Shown here one piece after another: positions 12,902 to 18,096 of a stretch of 64,000 nucleotides of DNA. The first letter of the stretch is position 1. Each line of letters starts with the position of its first letter. A program made the position numbers and the translations under genes. This DNA comes from Tagaea sp. CACIAM 22H2 (GTDB lineage: Bacteria; Pseudomonadota; Alphaproteobacteria; CACIAM-22H2), in NCBI GenBank assembly GCA_014444615.1, contig PVXE01000010.1, positions 1-64,000 of the forward strand, in the 5' to 3' direction. Under the pieces are notes generated by a model. The model did not search any database, was not told the origin of the DNA, and was given only the letters and a program-made list of their open reading frames with translations.

Positions 12902-13933
12902 TCAGCCTTTCGCGCGCAAAGTGCGGTCCGCGGTGGCCGGCAGGTACTGGCTGGTGAAGATGTCCTCCGGCTTCAGATCGCCTTTGAGATTGTAGGCGAG
13001 CAGCGTCTCCTCGATCGTCGCCTGTAGGCGCGCGGGCGAAGCGCCGCCCCAGCCGTAAAGGCGCGTATCGGGCGTGACCATCGAGCCTTCGACGATCATT
13101 TTCAGACGCTCGGTTTCGATCGCCTGATCGGCGAGCGCTTCGCGCGCTTTGACCGCCTTGCCGCCCGCGTCCGGATCGGCGATGCAGTCGAGCCAGCCGC
13201 GCGTCGCCGCGCGCACGAAGCCCGAAATCGCGCGCGGGTTCGTCGCCGGATTGACGATGATCGCGTTGCCGTAGCCTTTGAGGCCGTAATCCGAATAACG
13301 GAACGTGCGCATCTGATCGAGCGGCAGGCCGGCGAGCTTCAGGTTCAACAAGCCGGTGAAGTAGAAGAACGCGACCGCGTCGACTTCGCCCTTCAGGAAA
13401 AGCTGATTGCCAAGGCCCGGATCGACCGACTGCCATTGCACCGCATCGGCCGGCAGGCCCTGGGCGCGCGCGAAGATCGGGAACAGCGCGCGCGAGGCGT
13501 TGAAGGGCTGGCCCGCGACCTTCTTGCCGATGAAGTCGCGCGGCGCCTTGATGGGCGAGTCGGCTTTGACGATCAGCGCGTTCGGATTGCTGTCGTATTG
13601 GATCGCCGCGCAAACCAGCTTGCGGCCGGGATTGGCGAGGTTGTGCTGGATCATCGCGGGGATATCGGCCGAGGCGCCGTCATAGGCGCCGCCCGCGACC
13701 TGGGCGATGGCGCCCGCCGAGCCGTTGCCGACGTCGATCGTCACGTCCAGGCCTTCCTCGCGGTAATAGCCGCGCTCGGCCGCCACGAGAAAGCCGGCGG
13801 CCGAAGCTTCGACGCGCCAGCCGAGATTGAAGCGGAACTTCGCGGTCTGGCCGCGCGCCGATCCCAGGCCCAGGGCGACGGCCGGTGCGGCGAGAATCAA
13901 GGAACGGCGGCCGATACGGAGCGACTTCGTCAT
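12902..13933 (-). CDS. ABC transporter substrate-binding protein, NMT1/SsuA-like
   Basis: A 343-residue exported binding protein. The N-terminus RIGRRSLILAAPAVALG, with an RR pair and a hydrophobic stretch ending in ARGQ, may be a Tat-type or Sec signal. The mature part matches NMT1/THI5-like and SsuA-like proteins, with FLVAAERGYYREEGLDVTI, the ASADIPAMI loop and IKAPRDFIGKKVAGQP. These bind taurine, sulfonates, nitriles, pyrimidine precursors or aromatic acids. No permease or ATPase gene lies nearby, so it is an orphan component. GGGAGGT just before the ATG is a strong ribosome-binding site. Confidence 0.86.
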   Translation of the reverse strand: MTKSLRIGRRSLILAAPAVALGLGSARGQTAKFRFNLGWRVEASAAGFLVAAERGYYREEGLDVTIDVGNGSAGAIAQVAGGAYDGASADIPAMIQHNLANPGRKLVCAAIQYDSNPNALIVKADSPIKAPRDFIGKKVAGQPFNASRALFPIFARAQGLPADAVQWQSVDPGLGNQLFLKGEVDAVAFFYFTGLLNLKLAGLPLDQMRTFRYSDYGLKGYGNAIIVNPATNPRAISGFVRAATRGWLDCIADPDAGGKAVKAREALADQAIETERLKMIVEGSMVTPDTRLYGWGGASPARLQATIEETLLAYNLKGDLKPEDIFTSQYLPATADRTLRAKG

Positions 13934-14144: not shown

Positions 14145-14972
14145 TTACCCGAACAAGCCCAGCAGCACGGCCGGCTGCTGGTTGGCGATCGACAGCGACT
14201 GGATGCCCAGCTGCTGGCGAACCTGCAACGCCTGAACGGATGCCGCGGCCTTGCCGATATCCGCGTCGACGACGGCGCCGAGGCCCGTTATCGTCGCGTC
14301 GACCACCGAGTTCACGAAGTTCGACTGCAACGACATCGAACGCGTGTCCGAGGCGTTGGAGCCGAGCGACGTGGCCACCGCGTTGGCGAAAGTCGTCAAC
14401 GAGGTGAGGGCTGCGGTCGCCGCCGTGACAGTGCCGACCGTCGATGCGGCGAAGGTCGTGAACGCGGTGAAGACCGACGACTGGCTCGCCATCGTCAACG
14501 TCGTCGCCGAGGTATCGGCGAGGAACGTCTTGGCGGCCGAGTTGTTCGACAGCAGGTTTGTGCCGTTGTAGCTCGCCTGCGCGATGAAGTTCGAGATCTG
14601 GTTCGTCATCGCGTTGAAGTCGGCGGCGTAGATCGTGCGCTGGCTGTTGCCGATCGAACCGTCGGCGAGCTGCGTGATCTTGGCCTGGAGGTTACCCGCC
14701 AGATCCGAGATGTTGGTCAGCGCCGACTGCGTGACGGTGCCGAGGCCGACACCGTTCGCGAGCGAGCCTTGCACGGCCGAGAAGGCCTGAAGGTTGCCGC
14801 GAATGCCTTGCGCGACCGAGAAGGTCGACGCGTCATCGGCCGCATCCGCGACGCGATAACCCGTTTGAACCTGCTTGGACGCGATATTGAGTGCTGTTTG
14901 TGTATTGCGCAGTGAAGACAATGCGAGCAACGCGCCCACATTCGTATTCACGGAATTCGAGATTCCGGCCAT
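14145..14972 (-). CDS. Flagellin (copy 1)
   Basis: A 275-residue flagellin. The conserved D0/D1 N-terminus starts MAGISNSVNTNVGALLAL and carries the QTGYRVADAADDASTFSVAQ segment; the C-terminus ends LSIANQQPAVLLGLFG. The centre is short and rich in Thr, Ala and Ser with no added D2/D3 domain, so filaments would be thin-surfaced. The ATG at 14972 is preceded by AGAAAGGGACC, a good ribosome-binding site. It is the last of five same-strand flagellins and differs from the others in a C-terminal Gly and several central residues. Exported through the flagellar type III system, so it has no signal peptide. Confidence 0.93.
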   Translation of the reverse strand: MAGISNSVNTNVGALLALSSLRNTQTALNIASKQVQTGYRVADAADDASTFSVAQGIRGNLQAFSAVQGSLANGVGLGTVTQSALTNISDLAGNLQAKITQLADGSIGNSQRTIYAADFNAMTNQISNFIAQASYNGTNLLSNNSAAKTFLADTSATTLTMASQSSVFTAFTTFAASTVGTVTAATAALTSLTTFANAVATSLGSNASDTRSMSLQSNFVNSVVDATITGLGAVVDADIGKAAASVQALQVRQQLGIQSLSIANQQPAVLLGLFG

Positions 14973-15233
14973 TGGTTGGTCCCTTTCTGGTCTATGTGGT
15001 TTCGACTTCTGTCGAACCTGGAGTCCGTGTCGCCGTTCCCTCTTGATGGGGTTGGGCCGACGACGCCGCGTCCACGGACTGCCGAGCAATGAGATATTAA
15101 CGTAAAATCTACGGTTCCGGCAAGCCCTTGTTTTAAAAGACAAAAGTAGAATCTAGTTAATTAAAATAAAGATAAAATTAGCCATAATTAGAGCGCTACT
15201 ATAGTGCCGCACTCATGCGTTCGGTGAATGACT

Positions 15234-16064
15234 TTAGCGGGTGAGCCCGAGCAGGGCGCTGGGCTGGCTGTTGGCGAGGCCCAAGCTGGTGAAAGCCAGC
15301 TGACGCCCGACTTGGCGGGCGGAGGCTTGCGCCGCCGACGCGCCGAGATCGGCGTCGACCTGCGCGCCCAACCCGATCGTCACCGCATCGGAGATCGAGT
15401 TGGTGAGATTGGATTGCTGGACGAGGCCGCGCGTATCGGCGGCGTTGTTGGCCGCGGCTTGCGCGACGGTGCTTTGGAAATTCTGCAACGCGCCGAGACT
15501 GGCTTGCGACGTCGCGGCGGTCGAGGTGTCGATAGCACCTTGCAGCGTTGCGGCGCCGGTGCCAACTTGGCCCTGACCGGAAACCGAGATGCTGGCGCCG
15601 TTGGTATCGGCCAAGAACGACGTGCCGCTCGCCCCGGCTTGCAAAAGATTCTGACCGTTGAACCCGGCTTGCTGGATCGTGCTTTGAATCTGGCTGGTCA
15701 GCGATTGCACGTCGGCCGAATAGGTCGCGCGTTGCTGGGCCGACAGCGAGCCGTCGGAAAGCTGCGTCAATCGCTGCTGCAACTGGTTGGACAGATCCGA
15801 GACTTGACCGAGTGCCGCTTGCGTGACCGAGCCCAAACCCGCGCCGTTGGCGAGCGAGCTTTGCACGGCGGTGAAAGCCTGCAGGTCGCCGCGCAAGCCT
15901 TGCGCGACGGCGAAGGTCGACGCGTCGTCGGCCGCGTCCGCGACGCGCAATCCCGTTTGCAGACGCTTCTGTGCCTGCTGCAACGCCGCCGATTGGCTGC
16001 GCGTCGACGATAGCGCGCGATAGGCGCCTTCGTTGGTGTTGATGGAATTGATCGAACCGGCCAT
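15234..16064 (-). CDS. Flagellin (copy 2, divergent)
   Basis: A 276-residue flagellin that differs strongly from the other four. It starts MAGSINSINTNEGAYRAL, uses QQAQKRLQTGLRVADAADDAS, and ends LGLANSQPSALLGLTR. Its core is rich in Gln, Ser and Gly (SVSGQGQVGTGAATL). It may be a minor or positional filament subunit, or one used under other conditions. Only 92 bp separate it from the gene upstream, and most of that is a strong terminator, so there is little room for its own promoter. Expression by read-through is possible. Confidence 0.92.
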   Translation of the reverse strand: MAGSINSINTNEGAYRALSSTRSQSAALQQAQKRLQTGLRVADAADDASTFAVAQGLRGDLQAFTAVQSSLANGAGLGSVTQAALGQVSDLSNQLQQRLTQLSDGSLSAQQRATYSADVQSLTSQIQSTIQQAGFNGQNLLQAGASGTSFLADTNGASISVSGQGQVGTGAATLQGAIDTSTAATSQASLGALQNFQSTVAQAAANNAADTRGLVQQSNLTNSISDAVTIGLGAQVDADLGASAAQASARQVGRQLAFTSLGLANSQPSALLGLTR

Positions 16065-16075
16065 GAGGTAAATCT

Positions 16076-16114
16076 ACCCCAAAAAAAGAAGGCGCGGGAG
16101 TCTCCTCCCGCGCC
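16076..16114 (-). terminator. Rho-independent terminator after flagellin copy 3
   Basis: GGCGCGGGAG (16091-16100) pairs with CTCCCGCGCC (16105-16114) around TCTC. On the minus strand this stem is followed by CTTCTTTTTTT, a classic intrinsic terminator for the gene at 16157-16975. Confidence 0.9.
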
Positions 16115-16156
16115 CGCTTTTCTCCCGCAAAAAGTGCGGGAAATCGCCGTCCGGTA

Positions 16157-16975
16157 TTAGCGGAACAGGCCCAGCAGAACCGAGGGCTGCTGGTTGGCGA
16201 TCGACAGCGACTGGATGCCCAGCTGCTGGCGAACCTGCAACGCCTGCACCGAGGCCGAAGCCTTGCCGATGTCGGCATCGACGATGGCGCCGAGGCCCGT
16301 CGTCGTGGCGTCGACCACCGAGTTCACGAAGTTCGACTGGAGAGTCATCGAACGCGTGTCGGCGGCGTTTGCACCCAGCGACGAGGCCACCGCGTTGGCG
16401 AAAGTCGTCAACGAGGTGAGGGCCGCGGTCGCCGCCGTGACGGACGCAACCGTCGACGCGGCGAAGGTCGTGAACGCCGTGTGCACCGACGATTGGCTGG
16501 TCATCGTCAGCGTCGTCGCCGAAGTATCCGCCAGGAAGGTTTTGGCGGCCGAGTTGTTCGACAGCAAGTTCACGCCGTTGTAGCTCGCCTGCGCGATGAA
16601 GTTCGAAATCTGGTTCGTCATCGCGCTGAAGTCGGCGGCGTAGATCGTGCGCTGGCTGTTGCCGATCGAACCGTCGGCGAGCTGCGTGATCTTGGCCTGG
16701 AGGTTACCGACCAGGTTGGAGATGTTGGTCAGCGCGGCCTGGGTGACCGTGCCGAGACCCACGCCGTTCGCGAGCGAGCCTTGCACGGCCGAGAAGGCCT
16801 GAAGGTTGCCGCGAATGCCCTGCGCGACCGAGAAGGTCGACGCGTCGTCCTGCGCATCCGAGACGCGATAGCCGGTCTGGACTTGCTTGGAGGCGACGGA
16901 GAGCGCGGATTGAGTCGTACGCAGCGAGGCCAAGGCCACGAGCGCGCCAACGTTCGTATTGACGGAGTTCGTCAT
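16157..16975 (-). CDS. Flagellin (copy 3)
   Basis: A 272-residue flagellin, MTNSVNTNVGALVALASL at the N-terminus and LSIANQQPSVLLGLFR at the C-terminus, with the short Thr/Ala-rich centre of the array. Comparison by eye shows only two differences from copy 4: Asn for Asp in NISNLVG, and Thr for Gln in TLTMTSQ. The likely start is the ATG at 16975, preceded by AGAAGGAACC. The upstream leader of about 50 nt is almost the same as that of copy 4, but the promoter differs. This looks like a recent duplication or gene conversion. Confidence 0.93.
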   Translation of the reverse strand: MTNSVNTNVGALVALASLRTTQSALSVASKQVQTGYRVSDAQDDASTFSVAQGIRGNLQAFSAVQGSLANGVGLGTVTQAALTNISNLVGNLQAKITQLADGSIGNSQRTIYAADFSAMTNQISNFIAQASYNGVNLLSNNSAAKTFLADTSATTLTMTSQSSVHTAFTTFAASTVASVTAATAALTSLTTFANAVASSLGANAADTRSMTLQSNFVNSVVDATTTGLGAIVDADIGKASASVQALQVRQQLGIQSLSIANQQPSVLLGLFR

Positions 16976-17030
16976 CGTTATGGTTCCTTCTGGAAGATGT
17001 CCGGTCCGCTTCTGCGATCCGGTGCCGTTT
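16157..17030. repeat. Near-identical direct repeat, unit 1 (partner 17181-18054)
   Basis: The whole flagellin gene plus roughly 50 nt of leader is repeated in direct orientation at 17181-18054 with only scattered base changes. The similarity begins right at the stop codon on one side and fades in the promoter on the other. Long near-identical direct repeats like this can recombine, so copy number may vary. Confidence 0.85.
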
Positions 17031-17056
17031 GTCGGCAAAAATCACCGTAACCGAAT

Positions 17057-17083
17057 GTATCGGCAAAGTCAAAATTTGGTTTG
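17057..17083 (-). promoter_or_regulatory. Sigma-28-like promoter for flagellin copy 3
   Basis: Read on the minus strand, CAAACCAA is followed by 11 nt and then GCCGATAC. This is close to the flagellar sigma-28 pattern (TAAA..., 11 nt, GCCGATAA), with seven of eight bases right in the second block. It lies about 80 nt before the start codon. Some alphaproteobacteria use sigma-54 for flagellins, so testing is needed to be sure. Confidence 0.5.
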
Positions 17084-17120
17084 CAAAATGCTAATCACAG
17101 GGCGCGAACCGCCTGACGGC

Positions 17121-17154
17121 AAAAAAGAACGGGGGCGGCTTGCGCCGCCCCCGT
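17121..17154 (-). terminator. Rho-independent terminator after flagellin copy 4
   Basis: ACGGGGGCGGC (17129-17139) pairs with GCCGCCCCCGT (17144-17154) around TTGC. On the minus strand it is followed by TCTTTTTT, giving a strong intrinsic terminator for the gene at 17181-17999. Confidence 0.9.
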
Positions 17155-17180
17155 CTTTGCCTTCCCGAAGGGAAGATCGC

Positions 17181-17999
17181 TTAGCGGAACAGGCCCAGCA
17201 GAACCGAGGGCTGCTGGTTGGCGATCGACAGCGACTGGATGCCCAGCTGCTGGCGAACCTGCAACGCCTGAACGGAGGCCGAGGCCTTGCCGATGTCGGC
17301 GTCGACGATGGCACCCAGGCCCGTCGTCGTGGCGTCGACCACCGAGTTCACGAAGTTCGACTGGAGAGTCATCGAACGCGTGTCGGCGGCGTTGGCACCC
17401 AGCGACGAGGCCACCGCGTTGGCGAAAGTCGTCAACGAGGTGAGGGCCGCGGTCGCCGCCGTGACGGACGCAACCGTCGACGCGGCGAAGGTCGTGAACG
17501 CCGTGTGCACCGACGACTGGCTCTGCATCGTCAGCGTCGTGGCGGAGGTATCGGCGAGGAACGTCTTGGCCGCCGAGTTGTTCGACAGCAGGTTGACGCC
17601 GTTGTAGCTCGCCTGCGCGATGAAGTTCGAAATCTGGTTCGTCATCGCGCTGAAGTCGGCGGCGTAGATCGTGCGCTGGCTGTTGCCGATCGAACCGTCG
17701 GCCAGCTGCGTGATCTTGGCCTGGAGGTTGCCCACCAGATCCGAGATGTTGGTCAGCGCCGCCTGCGTGACGGTGCCGAGACCGACACCGTTCGCGAGCG
17801 AGCCCTGCACGGCCGAGAAGGCCTGAAGGTTGCCGCGAATGCCCTGCGCGACCGAGAAGGTCGACGCGTCGTCCTGCGCATCCGAGACGCGATAGCCGGT
17901 CTGGACTTGCTTGGAGGCGACGGAGAGCGCGGATTGGGTCGTGCGCAGCGAGGCCAAGGCCACAAGTGCGCCAACGTTCGTATTGACGGAGTTCGTCAT
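17181..17999 (-). CDS. Flagellin (copy 4)
   Basis: A 272-residue flagellin that differs from copy 3 at only two residues I could find. It has the same D0/D1 ends and short central region. The leader before the ATG (18000 to about 18050) is nearly the same as in copy 3, including GATCCGGT and CTTCTGCG pieces and the AGAAGGAACC ribosome-binding site. Its promoter has diverged to a sigma-70-like form, so the two copies may be used at different times while making the same filament protein. Confidence 0.93.
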   Translation of the reverse strand: MTNSVNTNVGALVALASLRTTQSALSVASKQVQTGYRVSDAQDDASTFSVAQGIRGNLQAFSAVQGSLANGVGLGTVTQAALTNISDLVGNLQAKITQLADGSIGNSQRTIYAADFSAMTNQISNFIAQASYNGVNLLSNNSAAKTFLADTSATTLTMQSQSSVHTAFTTFAASTVASVTAATAALTSLTTFANAVASSLGANAADTRSMTLQSNFVNSVVDATTTGLGAIVDADIGKASASVQALQVRQQLGIQSLSIANQQPSVLLGLFR

Positions 18000-18067
18000 C
18001 GTTATGGTTCCTTCTGGAAGATATCCGGTCCGCTTCTGCGATCCGGTGTCGGTTATCGACGATGCCG

Positions 18068-18096
18068 AAAATATTCCTGTTGGATAGCACTGTCAA
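18068..18096 (-). promoter_or_regulatory. Sigma-70-like promoter for flagellin copy 4
   Basis: On the minus strand TTGACA is followed by exactly 17 nt and TATTTT. The same place in copy 3 reads TTGACT and lacks a good -10, but has a better sigma-28 block. Overlapping remnants of the sigma-28 layout (CAAATCGT, 11 nt, GCTATCCA) are also visible here. Confidence 0.45.

Follow-up and report, generated by a model that had tools for sequence, protein, structure and literature searches.

How is control divided between two adjacent flagellin genes that encode almost the same protein? The question is raised by the 64,000-nucleotide stretch of Tagaea sp. CACIAM 22H2 DNA analysed here (the window), where an earlier note had proposed a sigma-28 promoter for one gene and a sigma-70 promoter for the other. 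The genome it belongs to (G000) is a draft of 4.39 Mb, 92.4% complete. The minus strand of the window carries an array of five flagellin genes, of which copies 3 and 4 are the twins in question:

14145-14972, minus strand: flagellin copy 1
15234-16064, minus strand: flagellin copy 2, divergent (52% identity to copy 4), without an ARAA leader hairpin
16157-16975, minus strand: flagellin copy 3 (twin), 272 aa
17181-17999, minus strand: flagellin copy 4 (twin), 272 aa
18250-19068, minus strand: flagellin copy 5
16090-16115, minus strand: terminator-like hairpin between copies 3 and 2
17128-17155, minus strand: terminator-like hairpin 3' of copy 4

Outside the array, G000 encodes four more full-length flagellins and a longer, 394-aa protein. 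G006 has the same array at the end of a contig; in G001 the contig end truncates it. Contigs C7, C8, C10 and C15 of G006 and C3 and C4 of G004 break off within flagellin genes that are nearly identical, and the partial matches come in pairs (G006, residues 94-272 twice and 1-57 twice; G004, residues 221-272 twice); the dispersed copies seem to be alike enough to break assemblies. The terminator-like hairpins of the region are as numerous as in shuffled sequence (6 against 6.6), so that their count is not significant. Copy 2 starts 26 nt past the one trailing copy 3 (window 15234-16156); upstream of it no leader hairpin was found and no promoter recognised, and its expression may rely on read-through from copy 3.

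The twins are as similar as the earlier note had stated: 2 of the 272 residues differ, as do 37 of the 816 nucleotides. Their leaders are likewise common (53 of the 57 nt directly before the ATG are identical) and diverge further upstream, also as claimed. A site-wise comparison of copies 3 and 4 from both G000 and G006 found, in the 140 nt upstream of the genes, 22 sites that join orthologs, 1 that joins twins and 2 of the cross pattern; for the coding sequence the corresponding numbers were 13, 18 and 2, a significantly different distribution (p 3.3e-5). The suspected exchange between copies is thus borne out, coding sites that join the twins outnumbering those of the null, cross pattern by 18 to 2. 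From this difference between upstream and coding patterns it follows that the twin promoters were distinct already at the G000/G006 split, and that the coding sequence has been homogenised since then in part, and incompletely. Whole-gene distances by themselves give no sign of homogenisation: at fourfold sites the twins differ by 0.15 and 0.20, the orthologs by 0.14 and 0.21. The idea that control splits before sequence therefore has the order wrong for this pair, in which the promoters differed before the species split and the coding parts were partly homogenised afterwards.

The promoters themselves were located as follows:

17044-17072, minus strand: copy 3 promoter, TTGACT (17072-17067), 17 nt, TACGGT (17049-17044); the hexamers, unlike the spacer, are conserved in G001 and G006
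18068-18096, minus strand: copy 4 promoter, TTGACA, 17 nt, TATTTT; hexamers kept in G006

The TTGACA-17-TATTTT element described in the earlier note is therefore present before copy 4, at 18096-18068. TTGAC starts exactly 97 nt 5' of the ATG in copy 3 of G000, G001 and G006 and in copy 4 of G000 and G006. Downstream of the 17-nt spacer, which varies between genomes, copy 3 has TACGGT in G000 and G001 and TACAGT in G006, and copy 4 has TATTTT in both G000 and G006. Each twin is thus preceded by two hexamers conserved between species and spaced within the 16-18 nt of a sigma-70 (RpoD) promoter; agreement with the sigma-70 consensus is 10 of 12 positions for copy 4 and 8 or 9 of 12 for copy 3. 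Judged by sequence, both twins should have RpoD-type promoters at an equal distance from the ATG, and the same relative start base is predicted for both, since TTGAC stands at -97 in each and is kept between species. A common relative start and a common sigma factor, the outcome that the earlier note had named as contrary to its proposal, is what the in silico analysis predicts.

The sigma-28-like block from which the proposal of two sigma factors arose does exist. It reads CAAA-15-GCCGATAC at 17083-17057 upstream of copy 3, agrees with a sigma-28 consensus at 10 of 12 positions, and has no counterpart before copy 4. Its identity as a sigma-28 promoter was not confirmed. GCCGATAC (17064-17057) falls inside the spacer of the TTGACT-17-TACGGT promoter, and the window contains 13 equal or better sites over both strands (two overlapping pairs counted twice). 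The block reads GGTGCAAC in the G001 ortholog of copy 3 and GCCGCAAC in that of G006, with 4 and 2 of its 8 bases changed, at a place where TTGACT-17-TACRGT is retained. FliA (TIGR02479) was above cut-off in 0 of 11 same-genus draft genomes, in a search in which the named controls exceeded the cut-off in 3 of 14; the matches below cut-off may, by frame size, be RpoD and RpoH. A fliA gene might have been missed in G000 alone, given its completeness, but 7 of the genus genomes are at least 90% complete. A sigma-28 promoter for copy 3 was accordingly rejected, and transcription of copy 3 through sigma-28 and of copy 4 through sigma-70 is very improbable. Manufacture of one protein both in and out of the flagellar cascade through two sigma factors is not supported, both promoters being RpoD-type by sequence.

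The twins could nevertheless split transcriptional control within the RpoD type, through promoters unlike in strength or through an unseen regulator. Each promoter is kept between species and differs from the other, with the better consensus match before copy 4, and we consider such a division quite conceivable, if somewhat short of an even chance. It is compatible with control through the leader, developed below, and both can hold.

A different sigma factor may act elsewhere in the family. RpoN is encoded in 11 of 11 genus genomes, and 8 of the 59 genus flagellins have a sigma-54-like box upstream (shuffles: mean 0.78, maximum 3). The dispersed flagellin gene on contig C15 of G000 is among these eight; the one on C18 has a weaker box, below threshold, and its G001 and G006 orthologs pass. 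By these sequences, a sigma-54/sigma-70 split is suggested between the array and the dispersed paralogs and not between the twins. The boxes of the C18 and C15 paralogs (L087, L088), which have orthologs in G001, G006 and G010, take the form TGGC-N7-TTGC.

Attention then falls on what the twins have in common upstream of the ATG. Their predicted leaders, from the predicted transcription start, sit in the 5' region of structural flagellins and contain a series of hairpins, as do other copies of the array:

17023-17037, minus strand: copy 3 leader hairpin H0 (predicted fold)
17001-17022, minus strand: copy 3 leader hairpin H1, loop AGAA at 17013-17010
16984-16995, minus strand: copy 3 leader hairpin H2 (TTCC-AGAA-GGAA), Shine-Dalgarno in its 3' arm
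18048-18060, minus strand: copy 4 leader hairpin H0 (predicted fold), stem kept by a two-sided change relative to copy 3
18025-18046, minus strand: copy 4 leader hairpin H1, loop AGAA
18008-18019, minus strand: copy 4 leader hairpin H2 (TTCC-AGAA-GGAA)
15001-15016, minus strand: copy 1 leader hairpin H1, TTCGAC-AGAA-GTCGAA
19097-19110, minus strand: copy 5 leader hairpin H1, CGCAC-AGAA-GTGCG

The predicted twin transcripts fold into H0, H1 and H2 with z-scores of -4.3 and -2.8, and the G006 leaders give -2.3 (copy 4) and -3.1 (copy 3); those of copies 1 and 5 are barely beyond their shuffles (-1.0 and -1.1). Between the twins, H0 changes on both sides, GCCG/CGGC against GUCG/CGAC, and retains its stem. 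In both twins an additional predicted stem, UGACG...CGUCA, spans the start codon (16956-16976 and 17980-18000).

The element extends across the genus. Our set of 59 leaders, from which the 394-aa flagellin of C14 (L090) and about 20 further matches bearing an N-terminus (many of them contig-end pieces) were left out, shows H1 in many flagellins, 36-44 nt 5' of the start and with a loop of AGAA or AGAA plus one base. AGAA is the commonest loop (44/59; runner-up 6/59), and an H1 of at least 6 pairs, one mismatch allowed, occurs in 38 of the 59 against a base-shuffle mean of 0.21. H2 is shorter and often present too, its 3' arm being the Shine-Dalgarno; it is reduced to 2 pairs in 17 of the 59 rows. 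On C18 of G000 the AGAA hairpin is absent despite 77% identity to copy 4.

RNAalifold and a model (R1) built on a mixed 39-row alignment returned zero base pairs, because four- and five-base loops shift the 3' arms out of register, and this alignment was replaced by two subsets split by loop length. In the subset with four-base loops (30 rows, 27 distinct), 85.2% of cells pair, compared with at most 36.6% in slid registers, and 7 of the 8 H1 pairs show two-sided changes; since every row had been selected to have a stem of 4 pairs or more, the inner pairs are conditioned. The second subset, of nine rows, behaved similarly. Run against its own genome, model R2 placed the leaders of copies 1, 4 and 3 on top, with the following row at E 0.39 and with copy 5 and the dispersed paralogs unlisted; these top leaders were in the model, and the result bears on specificity only.

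The leader likeness of the twins could, in principle, reflect shared descent and gene conversion without any function, given that 53 of 57 leader positions match and that the twins exchange sequence. Such an origin does not account for stem covariation throughout the genus, nor for ARAA hairpins that recur in other families, and we give it very little credence. No known Rfam family could be assigned to the leader: none was found on the leaders of the window (rows below threshold, including one across the copy 4 leader, were judged chance), on the leaders of 16 related loci at the gathering score, or on 20 class leaders at E 0.1. A flagellar context is known for one candidate, the flg-Rhizobiales RNA (RF01736). 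This RNA is described as a candidate structured RNA of Rhizobiales and listed as cis-regulatory in the relevant section of PMC2864571. Its covariance model found nothing at E up to 10 between window positions 13000 and 20000, and had no match in 144 class genomes, the class search being run without a positive control.

Which protein might read such a hairpin? FlbT has reportedly been linked to flagellin 5'UTRs since 2000. It is encoded, together with FlaF, in 11 of 11 genus genomes, as expected for an FlbT-controlled leader, and CsrA was rejected as the reader here because it was not found in G000 or G002, the two genus genomes searched. Excerpts of PMC4347634, PMC3930126 and PMC7591256 describe FlbT as acting on the flagellin 5'UTR in Caulobacter, and the 2015 review, in the portion concerned, names no motif for the FlbT site and describes the mechanism as unresolved (PMC4347634).

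Among the 144 class genomes, FlbT was found in 50, CsrA in 30 and flagellin in 91. Of the 91 flagellin-bearing genomes, 48 have FlbT and 29 CsrA, a single one of them both, and 15 have neither (p 1.5e-11, kinship ignored). Two genomes, G053 and G086, had an FlbT match without a flagellin match, which may reflect assembly gaps. We sampled 40 leaders from 26 FlbT genomes of other genera and 40 from 37 FlbT-less genomes; the 26 were taken from the 48 with FlbT and flagellin by strength of flagellin match among the matches listed, and the two of the genus itself are among the 22 left out. With all letters counted, the FlbT set is led by the loops AAAA (11) and AGAA (9), the next reaching 4, and the 26 leaders from CsrA genomes by AGGA (9) and AGGT (6). 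Loops of the latter type are known for CsrA, and their appearance serves as a check on the counting method. An ARAA hairpin is present in 20 of the 40 FlbT-set leaders (dinucleotide-shuffle mean 1.9) and in 5 of 40 of the other set (mean 1.9, maximum 6). Counted by genome, they are present in 17/26 with FlbT, 1/25 with CsrA and 4/12 with neither, and AGG loops in 1/26, 12/25 and 3/12, respectively (related genomes, kinship ignored). By the rule used, the ARAA hairpin is missing from the remaining 20 of 40 FlbT-set leaders and from 9 of 26 FlbT genomes. In the FlbT-less loci L181-L205, hairpins with AGGT or AGGA loops are frequent and are followed by AAGTAGGAG-like Shine-Dalgarno stretches that resemble CsrA sites.

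A role of the hairpins that does without FlbT, by protecting the 5' end, limiting ribosome access or engaging another reader such as FlaF, would fit the Shine-Dalgarno inside H2 and the ARAA hairpins of the 4 genomes with neither FlbT nor CsrA. Yet a pure stability element needs no fixed loop, and here the stems vary and the loop stays; that the hairpins go with FlbT genomes, and are nearly absent from CsrA genomes and from one divergent flagellin clade, fits a specific reader. We consider the FlbT-free role unlikely, though not to be dismissed, and propose the twin leader as a candidate FlbT recognition element.

The divergent clade comes from leaders of Caulobacterales/Maricaulales type (two loci labelled only Alphaproteobacteria), where 24 were counted and 6 of 30 left out (L021, L061-L064). 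These leaders carry one to three ARAA-type hairpins, at least one in 19 of 24 and at least two in 11 of 24, against a shuffled mean of 0.4. In the flagellin tree, the 5 hairpin-less leaders and 1 with a hairpin form a single clade (support 97/95, one member weakly placed), so that the hairpin is found in 18 of 18 leaders outside the clade and 1 of 6 inside, with L033_7189 and L039_6001, too short for the tree, counted as outside. Part of PMC7591256 describes Caulobacter FljJ as a divergent regulatory flagellin that, together with FlbT, represses the other five, and we infer that the hairpin-poor clade corresponds to FljJ. Copy 2 of the array resembles FljJ in being a divergent paralog without the leader element (52% to copy 4), which is absent also from its four relatives (G001, G006, G007, G009). 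Its placement in the flagellin tree, where the copy 2 clade lies inside the genus and outside the hairpin-poor clade, speaks against common descent with the latter.

At the profile level, the N-terminus of FlbT weakly resembles CsrA. In single hhalign comparisons, a profile of 20 FlbT sequences matched one of 20 CsrA sequences with a probability of 75 (E 2.5e-5), and the N-terminal part of FlbT alone reached 86 (E 5.1e-6). The best column shuffle scored 20.9 among 100 and 19.9 among 200, compared with 33.2 and 31.2 for the real alignments, and six random alignment halves retained the same start, at 31 to 86%. FlbT L38-R39 aligns onto CsrA L43-R44, of which R44 contacts RNA. The FlbT model has five predicted strands followed by helices (pLDDT 84). 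Fold searches with the whole model and with its N-terminus, each as a single chain, did not list CsrA (best rows E 1.8 and 2.0); a search with one chain may overlook CsrA, whose dimer is domain-swapped. No convincing relative emerged when PDB sequences were searched with FlbT, and a Pfam scan of 20 FlbT proteins found FlbT in 20 of 20, the remaining rows being weak. Kinship of the FlbT N-terminus with CsrA is plausible from these profile alignments. Taken further, FlbT would be a CsrA-related RNA-binder that, in one part of the class, took over flagellin control from CsrA and recognises ARAA rather than GGA loops in the tandem hairpins of the leader, with divergent flagellins lacking the element (the FljJ-like Caulobacterales/Maricaulales clade and, separately, copy 2) as its partners. 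We advance this wider scheme tentatively, as a possibility that falls well short of probable.

For the twins themselves, we favour the following mechanism, to which we attach about even confidence. The twins would stem from an old tandem duplication of a structural flagellin gene. Each would have a separate RpoD-type promoter, equally far from the ATG in both and already different when the species diverged, with conversion keeping the coding parts similar. Their mRNAs would open with the AGAA-loop hairpin leader, whose last hairpin includes the Shine-Dalgarno. FlbT would read the ARAA loops and delay flagellin translation until the hook-basal body is ready. Through this hold on translation via the common leader, both twins would remain within the flagellar programme after transcription, whatever their promoter. 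The transcription starts, the binding by FlbT and the repression are putative steps of this scheme.

Known systems offer partial parallels. Caulobacter crescentus also has FlbT and FlaF and several flagellins, one about half identical to the others, and places control on the flagellin 5'UTR, which is published there and would apply here by our reading. Two differences stand out: copy 2 lies outside the hairpin-poor Caulobacterales/Maricaulales clade, and Caulobacter flagellins are described as RpoN dependent (PMC3930126), whereas the twins have promoters of RpoD type. Like CsrA-FliW, the system would combine fixed-loop leader hairpins near the Shine-Dalgarno with a small-protein reader (here a proposed one), but the loops are AGAA/AAAA instead of AGGA/AGGT and CsrA was found in neither of the two genus genomes searched. 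Campylobacter jejuni flaA and flaB, adjacent and near identical, are likewise a flagellin pair with separate promoters. There, flaA is FliA dependent and flaB RpoN dependent (PMC3930126), whereas both twins here are sigma-70-type. FlbT has been called a system analogous to CsrA-FliW (PMC4894983, in excerpt); neither an FlbT recognition motif nor a claim of FlbT-CsrA kinship appears in the excerpts of PMC2864571, PMC4347634, PMC3930126, PMC4894983, PMC8306008 and PMC7591256. The leader hairpins may already have been described in the 2000 FlbT paper or the 2020 Developmental Cell paper on FljJ, and we do not claim a first report.

Twins with separate promoters are an ordinary kind of finding; what this pair adds is promoters held apart while the coding parts homogenise, the reverse of the order first proposed. 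A short hairpin with a fixed loop would make the mechanism of FlbT, without a motif in the 2015 review, directly testable, and the pairing of ARAA loops with FlbT and of AGG loops with CsrA would unite two flagellin checkpoints under one theme.
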